From an uncultured Pseudomonadales bacterium (GTDB taxonomy: Bacteria > Pseudomonadota > Gammaproteobacteria > Pseudomonadales > Pseudohongiellaceae): a stretch of DNA of 64,000 bases. Below the pieces are notes generated by a model. That model saw only the letters and a list, made by a program, of their open reading frames with translations. It did no database searches and was not told the origin of the DNA. Location of the stretch: NCBI GenBank assembly GCA_943842505.1, contig CALTDI010000010.1:124001-188000 (forward strand), given 5' to 3'. Made by a program: the position numbers and the translations under genes. Numbering within the stretch: the stretch's first letter is position 1; each line of letters starts with the position of its first letter. Of this stretch, positions 51,755 to 57,133 are shown piece after piece.

Positions 51755-52005
51755 AGCTGATCTTTGCTGAATCTGCATGGGAAGATTACTTATACTGGCA
51801 GAAGCAAGACAAGAAAATACTCAATCGTATTAACACGCTTGTCAAAGAGATTAAACGAAGCCCCTTTGAGGGAGTCGGTAAGCCAGAGCCATTGAAACAC
51901 GCTCTCTCTGGATATTGGTCGCGCAGGATAAATGATGCTCATCGTATTGTTTACGCTGTAAGGGGTGATTCGATATTTATCGCTCAACTTCGATATCACT
52001 ATTAG
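51751..52005 (+). CDS. yoeB: YoeB-family ribosome-dependent mRNA interferase toxin
   Basis: An 84-residue protein, the same length as E. coli YoeB and similar along its whole length: AWEDYLYWQKQDKKILNRIN, PFEGVGKPEPLKHALSGYWS and RRINDAHRIVYAV, ending in RYHY. The catalytic Glu, Arg and C-terminal His-Tyr are kept. It cleaves mRNA in the ribosomal A site and is neutralised by YefM. The stop lies 6 bp before attC site 2. Confidence 0.94.
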   Translation: MKLIFAESAWEDYLYWQKQDKKILNRINTLVKEIKRSPFEGVGKPEPLKHALSGYWSRRINDAHRIVYAVRGDSIFIAQLRYHY

Positions 52006-52010
52006 TAAAC

Positions 52011-52128
52011 ATAACGCCCGTAATAATAGGGGTGATCTTGTACCGCTTTCTTGGTCATTAGTTTAAATCCGCTGCTGCTTAACGGCAGCTTTCGGCCAAT
52101 AGCAGTCATTGATTCGCTTGTTATGTGT
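52011..52128 (-). repeat. Integron attC-like site 2
   Basis: Minus strand: begins ACATAACAAGCGAATCAATG and ends TTACGGGCGTTATG, about 118 bp. It contains a copy of the dispersed palindrome (GCTATTGGCCGAAAGC at 52082-52104). The stop codon of the next minus-strand gene (TAA) is the TAA of the attC core. Confidence 0.8.
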
Positions 52129-52501
52129 CATTTCGAGCACGATATTGGTAAATAGCATAGCTGACTGCTGCAATGCTCCCAAGAATAAATGTCGCCATAG
52201 AAAACAACGTTTGGCCTAAAGTTACGACTACGTTTGTTACTAGCAATTCAAATCCTTCATTTGTCATGCGCTCGTTCAGCAAATCTATTTTTCCAACGGT
52301 CCTCACGTATCGAAGAATGGCAGCAACAGATGCCATCATGTATAAACCGCAACCGATAAATGCCAAAGGTTTTGTAATGGATTTTCTGCCTGCATGGAAA
52401 GCAACGATGAATGCAAAAGTGCTTGCAAGCCAGTATTCCCAAATAGAAGAAATCAGGTGCAATTGTTCGGAAATAATGAGGTGATACTCTGCTTCAGTCA
52501 T
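52121..52501 (-). CDS. Cassette gene: four-helix membrane protein, unknown
   Basis: About 126 residues with four predicted membrane helices (WLASTFAFIVAF, LAFIGCGLYMMASVAAIL, VVVTLGQTLFSMATFIL and AAVSYAIY). No family recognised. The start is set at an ATG (52501, MTEAEYHL); the frame also reaches 52531 inside the next attC. The stop lies inside attC site 2, exactly as expected for an integron cassette on the minus strand. The base composition is AT-richer than the core genes. Confidence 0.65.
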   Translation of the reverse strand: MTEAEYHLIISEQLHLISSIWEYWLASTFAFIVAFHAGRKSITKPLAFIGCGLYMMASVAAILRYVRTVGKIDLLNERMTNEGFELLVTNVVVTLGQTLFSMATFILGSIAAVSYAIYQYRARNDT

Positions 52502-52530
52502 TGGTTTGAATTCCGCACGATGTGGGTACA

Positions 52531-52590
52531 CATAACGCCCGTAATAAGGTGTGCTGCTTGCAGCATCCCATTGATTTGATTGTTATGTGC
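52531..52590 (-). repeat. Integron attC-like site 3
   Basis: Minus strand: begins ACATAACAATCAAATCAATG, folds on GGATGCTGC/GCAGCACACC, ends TTACGGGCGTTATG. Short (about 60 bp) and almost canonical, located 3 bp beyond the stop of the following minus gene. Confidence 0.88.
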
Positions 52591-52591
52591 C

Positions 52592-53038
52592 TTATGCACT
52601 GAAATGCTCATCAACAATACTTCGCCAAGGATCAAAAAATCCATTTCGATTTCTGTGCCACCACTGTTCTAATCCTGGCTTCTGCATGTACCACTTGAGG
52701 GTGGTTAGCGCGACATCGTGGGAGACTTCTATAGTATCTGAAGCACTATGTTCCCACGCAACTTCTAGTGTTGTCATGAATCGAAAGAAGTACTCATCAA
52801 GCAAAATACTTTCCCAGTTTTCTAAAGAATCTCCTGAACTATTTTTTGCAATTACTCTAGCTAGTTCCGGCGTGATGCTCTCAGAGGCATCTATGAAAAA
52901 CTTGTTAACTTCTCTAACTCCAGAAACATGCAAATCCTTCTTGACTTGTTTTATCTGAAGAGACAGATATATAAGAGTAATACCGACAGCTGTCGCGCCA
53001 ATGATTTCTCCTAAAGCCCCTATCGCGTCCCAATTCAT
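52592..53038 (-). CDS. Cassette gene: membrane-anchored protein, unknown
   Basis: A 148-residue protein with one N-terminal helix (GALGEIIGATAVGITLIYLS) and an acidic helical soluble part (EVNKFFIDASESITPELARV, ENWESILLDEYFF). Similar single-helix proteins of unknown role are frequent in marine gammaproteobacteria. The stop lies 3 bp from attC site 3, the expected cassette arrangement. Confidence 0.75.
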   Translation of the reverse strand: MNWDAIGALGEIIGATAVGITLIYLSLQIKQVKKDLHVSGVREVNKFFIDASESITPELARVIAKNSSGDSLENWESILLDEYFFRFMTTLEVAWEHSASDTIEVSHDVALTTLKWYMQKPGLEQWWHRNRNGFFDPWRSIVDEHFSA

Positions 53039-53058
53039 GCAAGATTCCTAATTAGCAC

Positions 53059-53159
53059 ACATAACACCGGGTTAAGCGGCAGGCCAATGTGGCGCGGCTT
53101 TTGCGCACGTAAAAGATGTGACATGTTGGACTGTCCGACTTCAACCCCATGTTATGCGT
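53059..53159 (-). repeat. Integron attC-like site 4 (most canonical)
   Basis: Minus strand: CATAACATGGGGTTGAAGTC at the left and GCTTAACCCGGTGTTATG at the right. GGGTTGAAG pairs with CTTAACCC leaving one extrahelical G, the classical signature recognised by integron integrases. The site is 101 bp long. Confidence 0.88.
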
Positions 53160-53206
53160 GCCCCTCTCACTAAGAGAGGCTCGCGATAGATCGGAACACC
53201 AACCGA

Positions 53207-53855
53207 TCAGCGAGCATGATAAACGGTCGGCTCCAAAGGTTTGCGGAACGTCGCCGTGTAGTTCCAAGATGGACCACTCCGACGATCGAGAACGAAACCA
53301 GCTTGCTCGACCAAGGGACATAATTCTGCGAACCACATGAGATTGTCCGGAAGCTGCTCATGGAAGACCACTACTCCGGCGGGACGAAGCACCCGACTGA
53401 TCTCCGTCAGGCAGGCCCCCTTATCGGGAACCTCGCGAAGGACGGTAACCAACACAGCAATGTCAAAGTGAGCATCCGGGAAAGGCAAACGCTCGCTAGC
53501 GTTACCGACCGTGTACCCGACGTTCTCGATCCCCTTCTTCACCAGCTTACGTCTGGCTTTTGCGAGCATCTCTGGCTGGAGGTCGAACAGCTCAAGGCGG
53601 CCAGCTCGGACACGATGAGCAAGCTCAACACTGAAGTAACCCGATCCCGGCCCAATCTCTAGAATGCGATCCGTCTCTGAAATCTGAAATCTGAAATCGA
53701 TTCGCGAGCGTGCTGGGCGACAGCAGGAGTCGCCGGACAGGATTATCCATAATCCACGCGAGTTGATGGGGTGCATAGCCTCGTCTCAGCGCTTCCCACC
53801 AAGAGATGGCTGATCCAGTGCTCCCTTGGTTCGTGCTCTCTTTGTCATGCTTCAT
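53207..53855 (-). pseudogene. Cassette gene: SAM-dependent methyltransferase split by 7-bp tandem repeats
   Basis: The N-terminal part (53855 frame: YAPHQLAWIMDNPVRRLLLS, LANRF) and the catalytic part (ILEIGPGSGYFSVELA, then FDIAVLVTVLREVPD, VLRPAGVVVFHE) lie in different frames. The junction is exactly three TCTGAAA units at 53676-53696. Removing one unit joins LANRFQIS to ETDRILEIGPG and yields a 213-residue class I methyltransferase. Seven is not a multiple of three, so copy-number slips switch the frame. The substrate is unknown. The start is near the attC 5 core and the stop lies 50 bp from attC 4. Could be phase-variable, decayed or an indel error. Confidence 0.75.
53676..53696. repeat. 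Heptanucleotide tandem repeat (TCTGAAA)x3 inside the methyltransferase gene
   Basis: Three perfect 7-bp units followed by TC. Loss or gain of one unit changes the reading frame of the methyltransferase; two units give the continuous protein. Confidence 0.9.
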
Positions 53856-53870
53856 CGCTTCACTCGTACC

Positions 53871-53950
53871 GCATAACGCCCTTGTATGGTTGTTCTATGG
53901 GTTTCTCTCTCATTTCTCAGGGCCGCTTCCGGCCAATAGCTGCCGTTCGA
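53871..53950 (-). repeat. Integron attC-like site 5 (degenerate)
   Basis: The right end on the minus strand is canonical (AAGGGCGTTATGC), just before the methyltransferase start. The left end is only GTCGAACGG. It contains a dispersed-palindrome copy (53920-53950). Confidence 0.45.
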
Positions 53951-53981
53951 CCCTCTAAATCGCGCTTTCCAGCTATGAAAG

Positions 53982-54668
53982 CTAAATTTCTTGATCAAGT
54001 AGATTTAGAATTTCTTCACCCCAATCTATAGCGCGCCTCATACCAACTTCTTCATAGAGTTCAAGCCGTTGGATTTTGAGTATTGCCAAATTTCTGAACT
54101 CGACATTGACTCTTAAAGAGTCATAGCTTTTAGGCGTCCAATTCAAACCACCATCATCAGAAACAACAAACTCTGTATTAGTCAAAAAATCGATCCTATC
54201 ACGTACATACAAACGCTCAGATTCCATCATTCCACGAACAGCTGGGTAAGCTATTTCGTAGAAGTTTACAATTCGTAGTCGTATGTCCTCATTTGAAATT
54301 AGATCGAAGCCTTTTGATTTCAGTACCTCATAAACTGAAAAATTAAACTGCTGAGCTCTATAGCTTTTCAGTGCCTCAATACCCTTGCTTGATTTCTGTG
54401 GAAATACGTCACTCGAGTCAAAAGTAGCCAATAAATCAACTAGTTCCTCTTTGTCATATCCAATACTAGCAAGCCTATTTTTTAGCCTTAAGACTTCTAT
54501 TTCCAATGTTTCGCGGAATTGACTCAGAATTTCCCGTTCTTCGTGACGTCGCTGTGAATCTTCGTACCAAGAAGACGTTCCGAGTGCTATAAGAACTCCG
54601 AGCACAACCACTATCAATTCGGCAAATAGCCATCGAAAAGACTGGTTGGGCATTGTTAAAATTGACAT
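53982..54668 (-). CDS. DUF6090-like membrane-anchored protein
   Basis: A 228-residue protein with one N-terminal helix (FAELIVVVLGVLIALG), followed by a soluble helical region rich in Glu and Arg: WYEDSQRRHEEREILSQFRE and VYEVLKSKGFDLISNEDIRL. The N-terminal signature is that of DUF6090-type proteins, whose role is unknown. It is the first gene of the minus-strand array, 30 bp from attC site 5. A start at a second ATG five codons in is possible. Confidence 0.7.
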   Translation of the reverse strand: MSILTMPNQSFRWLFAELIVVVLGVLIALGTSSWYEDSQRRHEEREILSQFRETLEIEVLRLKNRLASIGYDKEELVDLLATFDSSDVFPQKSSKGIEALKSYRAQQFNFSVYEVLKSKGFDLISNEDIRLRIVNFYEIAYPAVRGMMESERLYVRDRIDFLTNTEFVVSDDGGLNWTPKSYDSLRVNVEFRNLAILKIQRLELYEEVGMRRAIDWGEEILNLLDQEI

Positions 54669-54690
54669 ACTTATCTAGCTTTTTGGTTTA

Positions 54691-54720
54691 GGGGCAGCTT
54701 TCGGCCAATAGCTGACGCTT
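54691..54720. repeat. Dispersed palindromic repeat, upstream of the array
   Basis: GGGGCAGCTTTCGGCCAATA then GCTGACGCTT. An outer stem TAGGGGC/GCCCCTA surrounds it (54688-54740). It marks the right boundary of the recognised cassette array. Confidence 0.6.
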
Positions 54721-54795
54721 TGAAAACTATGTCGCCCCTAGACACCCTCTATTTTCTTAATCTACTCGACCACCGCATTGTGCAACCGATCTTAT

Positions 54796-55503
54796 TTAAT
54801 TAGAGGTTAGAGCGTTAAGCCTTTCAGCTAATTCCTTTTTAGGGATTGGTCCAACTGAGCGGAATATTTCTTGGCCTGATGAATCTAGTACCAGCAGAGT
54901 TGGCATACCTACGATTTTGTAGAAAACTGCACTTCGAGGGAACAGATCAGTATCAACTTTGGTAAAGATGAAATTCTGAAGTGCGGCTTGCACATCTGTA
55001 CTATTGAGGGTTTGTTGCTCTAATATCTTACAGACAATGCACCATTCCGCGAAGAAATCGACGAAAACCAATTTGTCTTCGGCAAGAGCTGCCACTAACG
55101 CACTGGCTATTGGTTCCGGCACTGCGCCTTCGGGGGCAAGTTGATCAGTCTGAGAAATATCGCCGAGAGTTAAACGTGGTGTGTAACCTAAGCTTTGAAT
55201 TGCTTCATACATATCATCTAGCGTAGTGACGCTCGAATCATACTCAATGGTGAAAGCATCTCTATCGAGTATCATCTCAACATGTTCTTCTGACTTAATT
55301 CCAGGCAACTCTGACAGAGCTGCTACGACACTCTCGGGTCAGCTCAGTCAAGTGACGCCGCCGCGACTCTTCATCATACCTTCGACGAATAATGTCACTT
55401 TGGATAGCTCCGATTCCAATGCCGCCGCCTGAACGTAAATCGATAGCATAAGTCCTGCTATGAGAAAGGACGCTGAGGCGAAGGTTTTAGCGAATTGTTT
55501 CAC
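54796..55503 (-). CDS. Double-selenocysteine (UxxU) HMA-thioredoxin exported protein
   Basis: From a GTG at 55503 the frame runs 235 codons with only two internal stops, both TGA, at codons 52 (55350-55348) and 55 (55341-55339). Read as Sec they give T-U-L-S-U-P, the place where heavy-metal-associated (HMA) domains carry CxxC, followed by ESVVAALSELPGI and, later, SVTTLDDMYEAIQSLGYTP, both typical HMA. Residues 1-28 form a signal peptide (FLIAGLMLSIYVQA). Residues about 130-235 form a DsbD-gamma-like thioredoxin domain with Cys155/Cys158 (FFAEWCIVCK) and the cis-Pro in GMPTLLV. The product should be periplasmic, binding soft metals or acting as a selenol redox protein recycled by its own thioredoxin domain. 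Plain gene calling sees only 54796-55308. Confidence 0.85.
55305..55350 (-). promoter_or_regulatory. Two UGA(Sec) codons and a perfect SECIS-like hairpin
   Basis: On the minus strand GCAGCTCT (55323-55316) pairs with AGAGTTGC (55312-55305), eight pairs with one G-T, around the loop GTC. The loop starts 23 nt after the second UGA and 32 nt after the first, both within the 16-37 nt rule, and its first base is G. One element can thus serve both codons. Confidence 0.8.
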
Positions 55504-55946
55504 TACGAAAGATGTCTCTTAACGATAGAATTAGGACACAGTCTAACGCCTGCACCTACTATGCGCGCAAGTATTATTTCCCATTCAAGGTGTAAATCAG
55601 GGATATAACGAGAATCTCTTCTATTTTTGCACCTAGGGTTGAGCGTTTCCTACAAAATCACCACTGACCGCTGTGGGTCGATAGCGGTCATAAGGCCAGA
55701 TTCTTGGATGTTATGAGAAATGGACAGCTTTTAGACCAGAGCGGACGTTACAAATATTCCTTAACGTATGAAATTCGTGGGTTGGCTCTAACGGCAGCTA
55801 TCGACCCGAAGCTGTCATTCGATGTTTTTCAGAATGTCTCAATTTCTGCTTCCGAAAGCGGACATAGCGGGTATAAACCCTACTGTGCTAGGCTCTGGCG
55901 CTAATAATTAAGAAAAAACTAGTCCCCCTATTTTGGGAACGCTGTT
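55504..55946. other. Repeat-rich intergenic region
   Basis: No gene is seen in these 443 bases. The right half is made of four dispersed-repeat copies. A 66-codon open frame (55704-55904) is built from repeats and is not believed. Confidence 0.5.
55663..55875. repeat. Cluster of four dispersed palindromic repeats at about 60-bp spacing
   Basis: Copies at about 55663-55692 (TGACCGCTGTGGGTCGATAG, then CGGTCA), 55723-55750 (ACAGCTTTTAGACCAGAGCG, then GACGTT), 55787-55821 (ACGGCAGCTATCGACCCGAA, then GCTGTCATT) and 55848-55875 (CTGCTTCCGAAAGCGGACAT). Each is an imperfect inverted repeat. The spacers are not conserved. Confidence 0.65.
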
Positions 55947-55964: not shown

Positions 55965-56777
55965 CTAGACACTTAGCAGCCTCTGTTGATAACGCTCTTC
56001 ATACTTTACAGGCGACAGCTGATTATTGGAACTGTGCCGTCGTTTGCTGTTATAAAACATTTCAATGTAATCAAAAATATCACTCCTAGCTGCATCTCTT
56101 GTAGCGTAGGTTTGCCGGCGAATTCGCTCTCGCTTCAGTAACTGGAAAAAGCTCTCGGCCACCGCATTATTATGACAGTTCCCTCGTCGACTCATACTTC
56201 CTTCCAAGCCATGCGTTTTAAGAAAAGACTGCCAGTCATGACTCGTATACTGACTCCCTTGATCTGAATGCACGATTACCTGAGTAGTTGGGCTTCGTCG
56301 CCATACAGCCATTAGCAATGCGTTTAATACGATCTCCTTAGTAATCCGAGATTGCATCGACCAGCCTATTACTTTTCTTGAAAACAGATCCAACACGACA
56401 GCAAGATATAACCAGCCTTCGTGCGTGCGAATATAAGTGATATCCGTCACCCATGCCGCATCTGGCGTAGCCGGATTAAATTGCCGTTGTAACCGATTCG
56501 AGACTACAACATGGGGTTGCCCGCTTCGATGCCGAGGGCGCCGATAACCAATCTGTGCCCGAAGCCCAGCTGCTCGCATTAGCCGATAGACCCGAGCCTC
56601 TCCGCAATACTCACCGTACTCTCGCAAGTCGCTGTAGATCTTCCTGTAACCATAGACCGCACCGCTCTCCAGCCAGAATTGCTTAATCAGGCCTGTGAGC
56701 CGTACATTCGCAACAGCTCGCCTAGACTGCGGTTGTTTTATCCAGGCGGAATAGCCGCTGGGATGCAGGTCTAACAA
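55965..56777 (-). CDS. IS3-family transposase OrfB (DDE integrase core)
   Basis: A 270-residue DDE transposase frame with HTH-like YGYRKIYSDLREYGEYCG and the catalytic residues Asp in WVTDITYIRT, Asp in VHSDQGSQYTS and Glu in AVAESFFQLLKRE. The frame is open upstream to just after a TAG at 56847-56849, including VRCAFIRSHNKAWPVRWLCN, so the natural product extends beyond the ATG-like start at 56777. It is normally made as an OrfAB fusion. Confidence 0.92.
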   Translation of the reverse strand: MLDLHPSGYSAWIKQPQSRRAVANVRLTGLIKQFWLESGAVYGYRKIYSDLREYGEYCGEARVYRLMRAAGLRAQIGYRRPRHRSGQPHVVVSNRLQRQFNPATPDAAWVTDITYIRTHEGWLYLAVVLDLFSRKVIGWSMQSRITKEIVLNALLMAVWRRSPTTQVIVHSDQGSQYTSHDWQSFLKTHGLEGSMSRRGNCHNNAVAESFFQLLKRERIRRQTYATRDAARSDIFDYIEMFYNSKRRHSSNNQLSPVKYEERYQQRLLSV

Positions 56778-56833
56778 GTTGCAGAGCCAGCGAACAGGCC
56801 ATGCCTTATTGTGAGATCTAATAAAGGCGCACC

Positions 56834-57133
56834 TTACTCGGACTGGCTAGCAAAGTACGCCGCGGCTTTTTTTAGGATATCGCGCTCTTCGGTGACGCGT
56901 TTTAACTCCTTCTTAAGCTGGCGAATCTCGGCCTGTTCTGCGGCTAGCACTTGGTGTTTAGCAGAATCAGGTCCGTATTTCTTTTTCCAAGCGTAAAGAC
57001 TGTGCGTTGTGATGCCAAGACGACTCGCCACTTCTGCGACACTGTGGCCTCGATCAACTACTTGCTTGACCGCTTCTATTCTAAATTCTTCTGTGTATCG
57101 ATTGTTGCTCATATTCACCTCTCTTATAGCCAT
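56834..57133 (-). CDS. IS3-family transposase OrfA (HTH)
   Basis: A 99-residue protein: helix-turn-helix (EEFRIEAVKQVVDRGHSVAE, LGITTHSLYAWKKKYG) and a leucine-zipper-like helix (EIRQLKKELKRVTEERDILKK). A run of seven A residues on the coding strand (56867-56873) resembles an IS3 slippery site. However a -1 slip there meets TAG at 56847-56849 before orfB opens, so fusion synthesis may be impaired or use another site. Confidence 0.92.
   Translation of the reverse strand: MAIREVNMSNNRYTEEFRIEAVKQVVDRGHSVAEVASRLGITTHSLYAWKKKYGPDSAKHQVLAAEQAEIRQLKKELKRVTEERDILKKAAAYFASQSE

Follow-up and report, generated by a model that had tools for sequence, protein, structure and literature searches.

A UxxU HMA-thioredoxin protein from an uncultured Pseudomonadales bacterium that probably uses selenium to bind mercury or a similar metal

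Selenocysteine (Sec) almost certainly occupies both positions of a UxxU motif in a small HMA-thioredoxin protein, a prediction that we draw from sequence comparison and that concerns a gene in a 64,000-nucleotide stretch of an uncultured Pseudomonadales genome (hereafter the window). In the reading that we prefer, with a probability of about 0.68, the product would be a metal-induced periplasmic diselenol binder of a soft metal, most likely Hg(II), kept reduced by its own thioredoxin domain. Because many relatives of the gene carry a metal-type promoter or mercury-resistance-like neighbours, it is probable that the protein employs selenium in binding mercury or a metal like it. The features on which this reading is built are listed in Table 1.

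Table 1. Features of the UxxU HMA-thioredoxin gene and its upstream region, in window coordinates
Feature	Position	Strand	Remarks
Coding frame, UxxU HMA-thioredoxin protein	54796..55503	minus	235 codons; homologous frame in 14 genes
GTG start; TAA stop	55503; 54798-54796	minus	
UGA 1 (predicted Sec52)	55348..55350	minus	
UGA 2 (predicted Sec55)	55339..55341	minus	
Probable signal peptide, residues 1-27	55423..55503	minus	hydrophobic core and AxA end, judged by eye
HMA-like domain, about residues 34-109	55177..55404	minus	Pfam HMA and PDB alignment
MMKSRGG, residues 43-49	55357..55377	minus	directly before V-T-U
Thioredoxin domain, DsbD-gamma-like, about residues 130-232	54808..55116	minus	Pfam, DsbD profile, PDB DsbD chains
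CIVC redox motif, Cys155 and Cys158	55030..55041	minus	
SECIS-like hairpin	55305..55323	minus	5-pair core GCUCU/AGAGU, loop GUC, 3-pair lower stem
Diverged MerR-type promoter	55540..55570	minus	TTGCGC, 19-base spacer with operator-like stretch, TAGACT

The only internal stops of the frame are U52 and U55 (TGA read as U), in the context GGVTULSUPE. With Sec entered as Cys, residues 49-108 match the Pfam HMA family (PF00403) with 30.8 bits against a cut-off of 24.8. Residues 140-230 match Thioredoxin (PF00085) with 50.8 bits (cut-off 23.5) and contain a CxxC, CIVC, whose two cysteines are invariant among 38 aligned proteins. A PDB sequence search placed T-U-L-S-U opposite the TCxxC of copper ATPases (7xuk, 7si3, 1p6t, 2rml), with the MerP chains 1osd (E 0.0066) and 1afi (E 0.018) as weaker matches, and the thioredoxin part matched DsbD chains, among others. 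Thus, two proposals of the initial annotation are borne out: the two TGAs take the place of the CxxC cysteines in an HMA domain, as seen in the frame, the Pfam and PDB alignments and all 14 full-length genes, and this domain is fused to a DsbD-gamma-like thioredoxin. The MMKSRGG stretch seems to be an insertion relative to ordinary HMA domains, and its M43, M44, K45, S46 and G49 are invariant among 22 aligned proteins. Outside that alignment, HMA-only forms read GMKKTKGG at this place, and L090 and L092 carry N and T for the S between both U.

The two TGAs are a stable property of the family. TGA stands at both places in 14/14 full-length genes whose DNA was read, which come from 11 genomes and reach down to 39% protein identity, and independent assemblies agree on the TGA positions. 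These are the window gene, its second copy on contig C24 (the C24 copy; 98% in the search of the class), L011, L012, L013 and L014, two genes each in G643 and G762, and one each in G812, G813, G783 and G904; among these genes, the closest relative outside the genome of origin is L011, in G754. Both TGAs also occur in two HMA-only homologues, from G854 and G859. Their UxxU frames (L094 4557-4808 and L093 552-908, respectively) have the same hairpin, lack the thioredoxin and a clear start codon, and are perhaps relatives of minimal form, perhaps remnants. A scan of genome contigs gave seven loci, four of them UxxU genes and three matching the thioredoxin part only. Across 390 genomes of the order (E 1e-25), the gene was found in two, the genome of origin (G000) and G643; in the family of G643 it was found in eight of 206, none with Cys, and nine of the ten rows of that search show exactly two TGA, the tenth, from G859, having further stops in the matched stretch. 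Outside the genome of origin, none of the matches listed in a search of 369 genomes of the class starts before residue 84, and the plasmid and viral contigs searched gave no match for the UxxU gene. Pairwise comparisons indicate purifying selection on both sides of the TGAs: dN/dS is 0.03-0.36 upstream (10/11 pairs calculable, over only 40-51 codons; the window gene and the C24 copy, with zero differences there, yield no value) and 0.12-0.30 downstream (8/11 pairs calculable, three being saturated).

A candidate recoding signal lies close behind the two codons. Bacterial SECIS elements are stem-loops just 3' of the UGA, according to the available text of PMC9312934. The initial annotation had described a perfect 8-bp hairpin with a GTC loop; the eight pairs and the loop are there, as is the spacing (the loop starts 23 nt past UGA2 and 32 nt past UGA1), but one pair is G-U, so the window hairpin is not strictly perfect. 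The core pairs in 16/16 sequences with a loop of GUY, a G in the loop being typical of bacterial SECIS. Among the 16, one sequence has exchanged a C-G pair of the core for U-A, another has exchanged U-A for C-G, and one shows U-G at that pair. Below the core, the stem forms directly in six, with a bulged U in eight and imperfectly in two. When the bulged structure was imposed on the 15 distinct rows, 90.0% of cells paired and three pairs showed two-sided changes, against 1.0 in shuffles (7/500 as high). Its covariation was 0.202, against 0.143 +/- 0.013 in shuffles (0/500) and a maximum of 0.064 when the partners were slid, with the caveat that related sequences may beat shuffles without any structure; the unbulged form reached 0.145. 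One of the five covariation measures, further pair types, was not above shuffles (5 versus 4.9). When synonymous codons were drawn at random, the chance of obtaining the core hairpin together with the loop G was P = 0.013-0.056 for a single gene; the genes are related, but each was treated singly. The folding energy is unexceptional (z = -1.03 for the 42-nt piece after UGA2; 28/200 shuffles fold as well), and no Rfam family was matched in the window. A 57-nt minimum-energy fold that pairs UGA1 was rejected as the recoding signal, with one two-sided pair and a covariation score reached by 125/500 shuffles. RNAalifold additionally proposes a second helix, which pairs UGA2.

The initial annotation had tied the Sec reading to a Sec machinery in the same genome, and this is largely in place: selA (523.6 bits), selD (282.4 bits) and selB, whose wing domain scores 52 bits in a 663-aa frame, are all over their cut-offs, while selC (tRNA-Sec) is missing from the assembly of the genome of origin (94.09% complete). 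All ten family matches to tRNA-Sec are under the cut-off there, and ARAGORN takes the eight of these ten that became loci for ordinary tRNAs. A relative's tRNA-Sec, used as DNA query in a search with no positive control, found no match in the same assembly, and two 20-kb stretches of the selA/selB contig contain no tRNA. The tRNA was found in 5/5 other gene-bearing genomes tested. Of a set of 15 genomes, 12 have selA and 13 a tRNA-Sec that scores over the cut-off; the six gene-bearing genomes of this set include five with selA (not G755) and five with tRNA-Sec (not G000). The tRNA-Sec of G754 sits at a contig edge (L067 1-95; G754:C87:3-94), which may hint at why the assembly of the genome of origin misses its own. 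In seven genomes of the same genus, tRNA-Sec occurs in all seven and selA in six, and the UxxU gene has no match at E 1e-25 in any of them; thus, the Sec trait predates the UxxU gene and does not depend on it. The selD gene (G000:C10:355780-356694) sits within a 759-aa open frame and is therefore probably fused to another domain.

How does the family appear in protein databases? A protein search gave 105 relatives and a profile search 145, of which the best 120 were used, for 139 distinct proteins overall. Sorted by pattern, 27 have the motif, every one as WxxW, 39 begin just downstream of it and 73 fit neither pattern, many of these beginning further downstream and a few being other thioredoxins. 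CxxC at the motif was seen in 0/139, nor did it appear among the matches listed for the class or in the searches of the order and of the family of G643. The initial annotation had suggested looking for homologues with CxxC at this place; these searches gave none, and since homologues keep the TGA instead, the missing Cys homologue is no refutation of the Sec reading. To judge from the protein records alone, WxxW is what gene calling with TGA as Trp would produce. The databases have a blind spot here, as none of the 139 relatives shows Sec and the entries are either truncated or have W in both positions.

Such records could also be taken at face value, in two ways. The truncated ones, together with a 170-aa frame that opens at TTG 55308, would suit a decayed gene in which two stop mutations have left the downstream 170-codon frame as a separate thioredoxin. 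We rejected this as highly improbable, given the same two TGAs in all 14 genes, the low dN/dS on either side of them and the conserved hairpin; the downstream frame is also without a signal peptide, as judged by eye. The WxxW records are what one would see if TGA were read as tryptophan in a reassigned code, and to this we give next to no chance. It was rejected because the genome has selA, selB and selD, the hairpin covaries, TGA aligns with the HMA Cys, and TGG is in normal use: 37 frames of 200-853 aa are open in the standard code, with 226 TGG and three ending in TGA, the missing internal TGA in these frames being partly by construction.

The initial annotation had also raised the idea of a soft metal, and this gains strength from what is new here: a MerR-type promoter before 10/14 genes, with a diverged version before the window gene, and mer-like neighbours at 8/14. 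The dyad CTGTAGnnnCTACAG lies at most 300 bases upstream of these ten genes with at most three mismatches, mononucleotide shuffles giving 1.9 matches per set, and is also found close to the merR genes of L012, L013, L014, L071, L072 and L091. In promoters controlled by MerR, the dyad stands between -35 and -10 boxes that are 19-20 bases apart. Twelve sites, namely the ten dyad sites and those of the window gene and L011, were aligned by hand on TTG; TAnnnT follows 19 bases after TTG in 12/12, against 27/2001 TTG positions of the window. A matrix built from the ten relatives' sites, with the window and L011 excluded, gives its highest score among 127,934 positions to the site upstream of the window gene (22.4 bits versus 9.7 for the next), a score under those of all ten training sites (27.9-43.3); these sites are homologous, and the match thus shows descent of the promoter, not that the promoter works. 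Only 9/14 operator bases are kept in the window site, so the window promoter, as its sequence suggests, may no longer be responsive. The C24 copy lacks the upstream promoter.

Neighbours were called by tblastn in flanks that vary from 0.5 kb to tens of kb beside the 14 genes, so that missing neighbours are uneven evidence. The eight genes with a MerR-, MerC-, MerT- or GDCCVxC-like neighbour break down as follows: a MerR-like gene beside seven (L012, L013, L014, L071, L072, L087, L091), GDCCVxC beside four (L014, L071, L072, L088), MerC beside two (L071, with 172.3 against a cut-off of 170, and L014, under the NCBIfam cut-off and over that of Pfam) and a MerT-like protein at L088 (39.4 bits, cut-off 150). 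L087 has in addition a neighbouring HMA protein with CxxC. None of the queried mer-like neighbours was found in the available flanks of the window gene, C24, L011, L089, L090 and L092. Three of the UxxU genes have, in their MerR/MerC/GDCCVxC neighbourhood, a 180-aa membrane protein with no Pfam match (L071 6193-6741, L072 11133-11675, L014 7746-8285).

Which metal, then, would the protein bind? The regulators point to mercury: TIGR02051 MerR is the top model for 5/5 scanned (126.6-135.7 bits, all under the cut-off of 150.85), and six that we compared have three Cys, with spacings of 35 and 8 in five of them and of 35 and 9 in the sixth, CueR being without the Cys 35 residues ahead of the second. 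Copper, silver, cadmium, lead or zinc in place of mercury would be an unlikely choice, if one to be taken seriously: MerR is followed closely in score by the CadR-PbrR, CueR and ZntR models, CopZ is the best HMA profile for the window protein (36.1 bits, under cut-off), a CDF exporter and a RicR-like repressor lie near L091, and MerA is mostly absent. We nevertheless favour Hg(II), because of the MerC over cut-off beside one gene and the top regulator model, and the cysteine spacing speaks the same way. MerA is over its cut-off in 1/13 gene-bearing genomes (G756); taking MerA in the genome as the criterion, a classical mer operon is thus wanting in 12/13. Weaker MerA relatives occur in 20/20 genomes searched, and MerA-like frames of about 710-730 aa, such as that at G000:C4:155635-156990 and similar ones elsewhere, score 375-399 bits against the MerA cut-off of 454.

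A different role for the same Sec residues also has to be weighed. The protein could be a real selenoprotein that works as a redox enzyme, its UxxU acting as a selenol catalyst on a peroxide, a disulfide or a metalloid and its thioredoxin regenerating it. Most selenoproteins are likely redox proteins, as stated in the accessible part of a 2026 review (PMC13188914), and a CxxC thioredoxin within the same chain suits an enzyme. We hold this to be improbable, because the Sec residues occupy the metal-ligand positions of an HMA domain and both the promoter and the neighbours are of the metal-resistance type.

Returning to the binder of a soft metal, we infer from the sequences how Sec insertion, export, the binding and identity of the metal, electron flow between domains and regulation could fit together. 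SelB would decode both UGAs, aided by a single SECIS hairpin that lies shortly behind them, and the finished protein would be exported to the periplasm. There, two selenols in place of the HMA thiols (G-V/A-T-U-x-S-U) would bind the metal, most likely Hg(II). The DsbD-gamma-like CxxC thioredoxin could reduce the diselenide formed in the oxidising periplasm, or aid metal release, and would itself be recharged through thiol reduction in the periplasm. In most relatives, a MerR-family metal sensor probably switches on transcription at the dyad, between boxes 19 bases apart. Since MerA is mostly absent, the captured metal would probably be handed to a carrier or retained. Selenolate binds mercury more tightly than thiolate. 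More tentatively, and with less than even confidence, we envision a selenium-dependent mercury defence that does without MerA: the induced, secreted diselenol HMA site would capture Hg(II) as an Hg-Se complex, and the thioredoxin would keep this site reduced and drive release or hand-over to MerC/MerT-like carriers. Such a defence, if true, would depend strictly on Sec, and the failure to find a Cys form would then have its explanation.

Several known families share parts of this design. The review cited above, in its accessible part, counts 119 selenoprotein families or subfamilies and has an NF041115-type entry, a 'putative mercuric reductase' with UxxU and 2 Sec (PMC13188914). NF041115 (UxxU_metal_bind, metal-binding (seleno)protein) resembles the window protein in its HMA-type domain, UxxU and two Sec, but is a 74-position model without thioredoxin. 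Membership was rejected, as the window protein scores 26.6 bits and the best of six members scanned singly 51.7, against a cut-off of 95. NF045683, the MerT/CopZ fusion-like heavy metal transport selenoprotein, shares a metallochaperone domain and a link to metal transport and differs by a MerT part and no thioredoxin, as far as its name tells; it gave no match to the window protein at E 1 or better and is matched by 6/38 UxxU family members at E 0.001. MerP (TIGR02052) is an exported HMA-type metal binder, as the window protein is predicted to be, in a mer-like setting as in the UxxU relatives, but has CxxC and no thioredoxin where the window protein has UxxU and thioredoxin; with 23.6 bits against a cut-off of 92.55, membership was again rejected. 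The C-terminal (gamma) domain of DsbD, closest by profile and PDB search, shares the CxxC thioredoxin fold (58 bits, against a whole-protein cut-off of 330). Unlike DsbD, the window protein has no membrane domain, and its thioredoxin is fused behind an HMA domain.

The HMA-thioredoxin protein is absent from Table 1 of the 2026 review, where NF041115 and the MerT-type entry come nearest (PMC13188914), and the main text of PMC12013277, as available, mentions neither mercury, heavy metal, UxxU nor HMA. A 2008 GOS survey tabulates a Sec form of the mercuric transport protein MerP, with two sequences, and thus shares with our case Sec in a MerP-like protein; the available text gives no sequence, motif or thioredoxin fusion for comparison (PMC2398784). 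This row may be a glimpse, or fragment, of the UxxU HMA-thioredoxin family. Aside from it, we did not find a double-Sec HMA-thioredoxin family described in the portions of the literature covered here. The family combines two selenols at metallochaperone thiol positions with a reductase of its own and, in relatives, metal-type control. It gives an opportunity to test whether Sec can be chosen for metal binding as well as for catalysis, and whether a single SECIS can serve two UGAs that are nine bases apart. To our knowledge, few proteins seem built for selenium as a metal ligand.

The C24 copy (L073 1828-2651) and window 54703-55526 have only an 824-bp block in common, 98.9% identical, and the flanks differ; the UxxU gene thus moved or was copied alone. 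IS3-type transposase genes lie directly upstream of it (window 55965-57133), and an IS200/Y1-type transposase gene (L072 8006-8650) follows one UxxU gene of G643. Further along, a small gene (52121-52531) is bracketed by two near-identical short repeat pairs (22 nt, 95%; 21 nt, 90%) at window 52005-52127 and 52526-52589, which look to us like the attC sites of integrons. Next come several small and unrelated genes of the minus strand. A REP-like palindromic unit of 31 nt is scattered in five copies among the genes of window 52080-55819, and a core pattern of it occurs eight times in the window against 1.7 expected.
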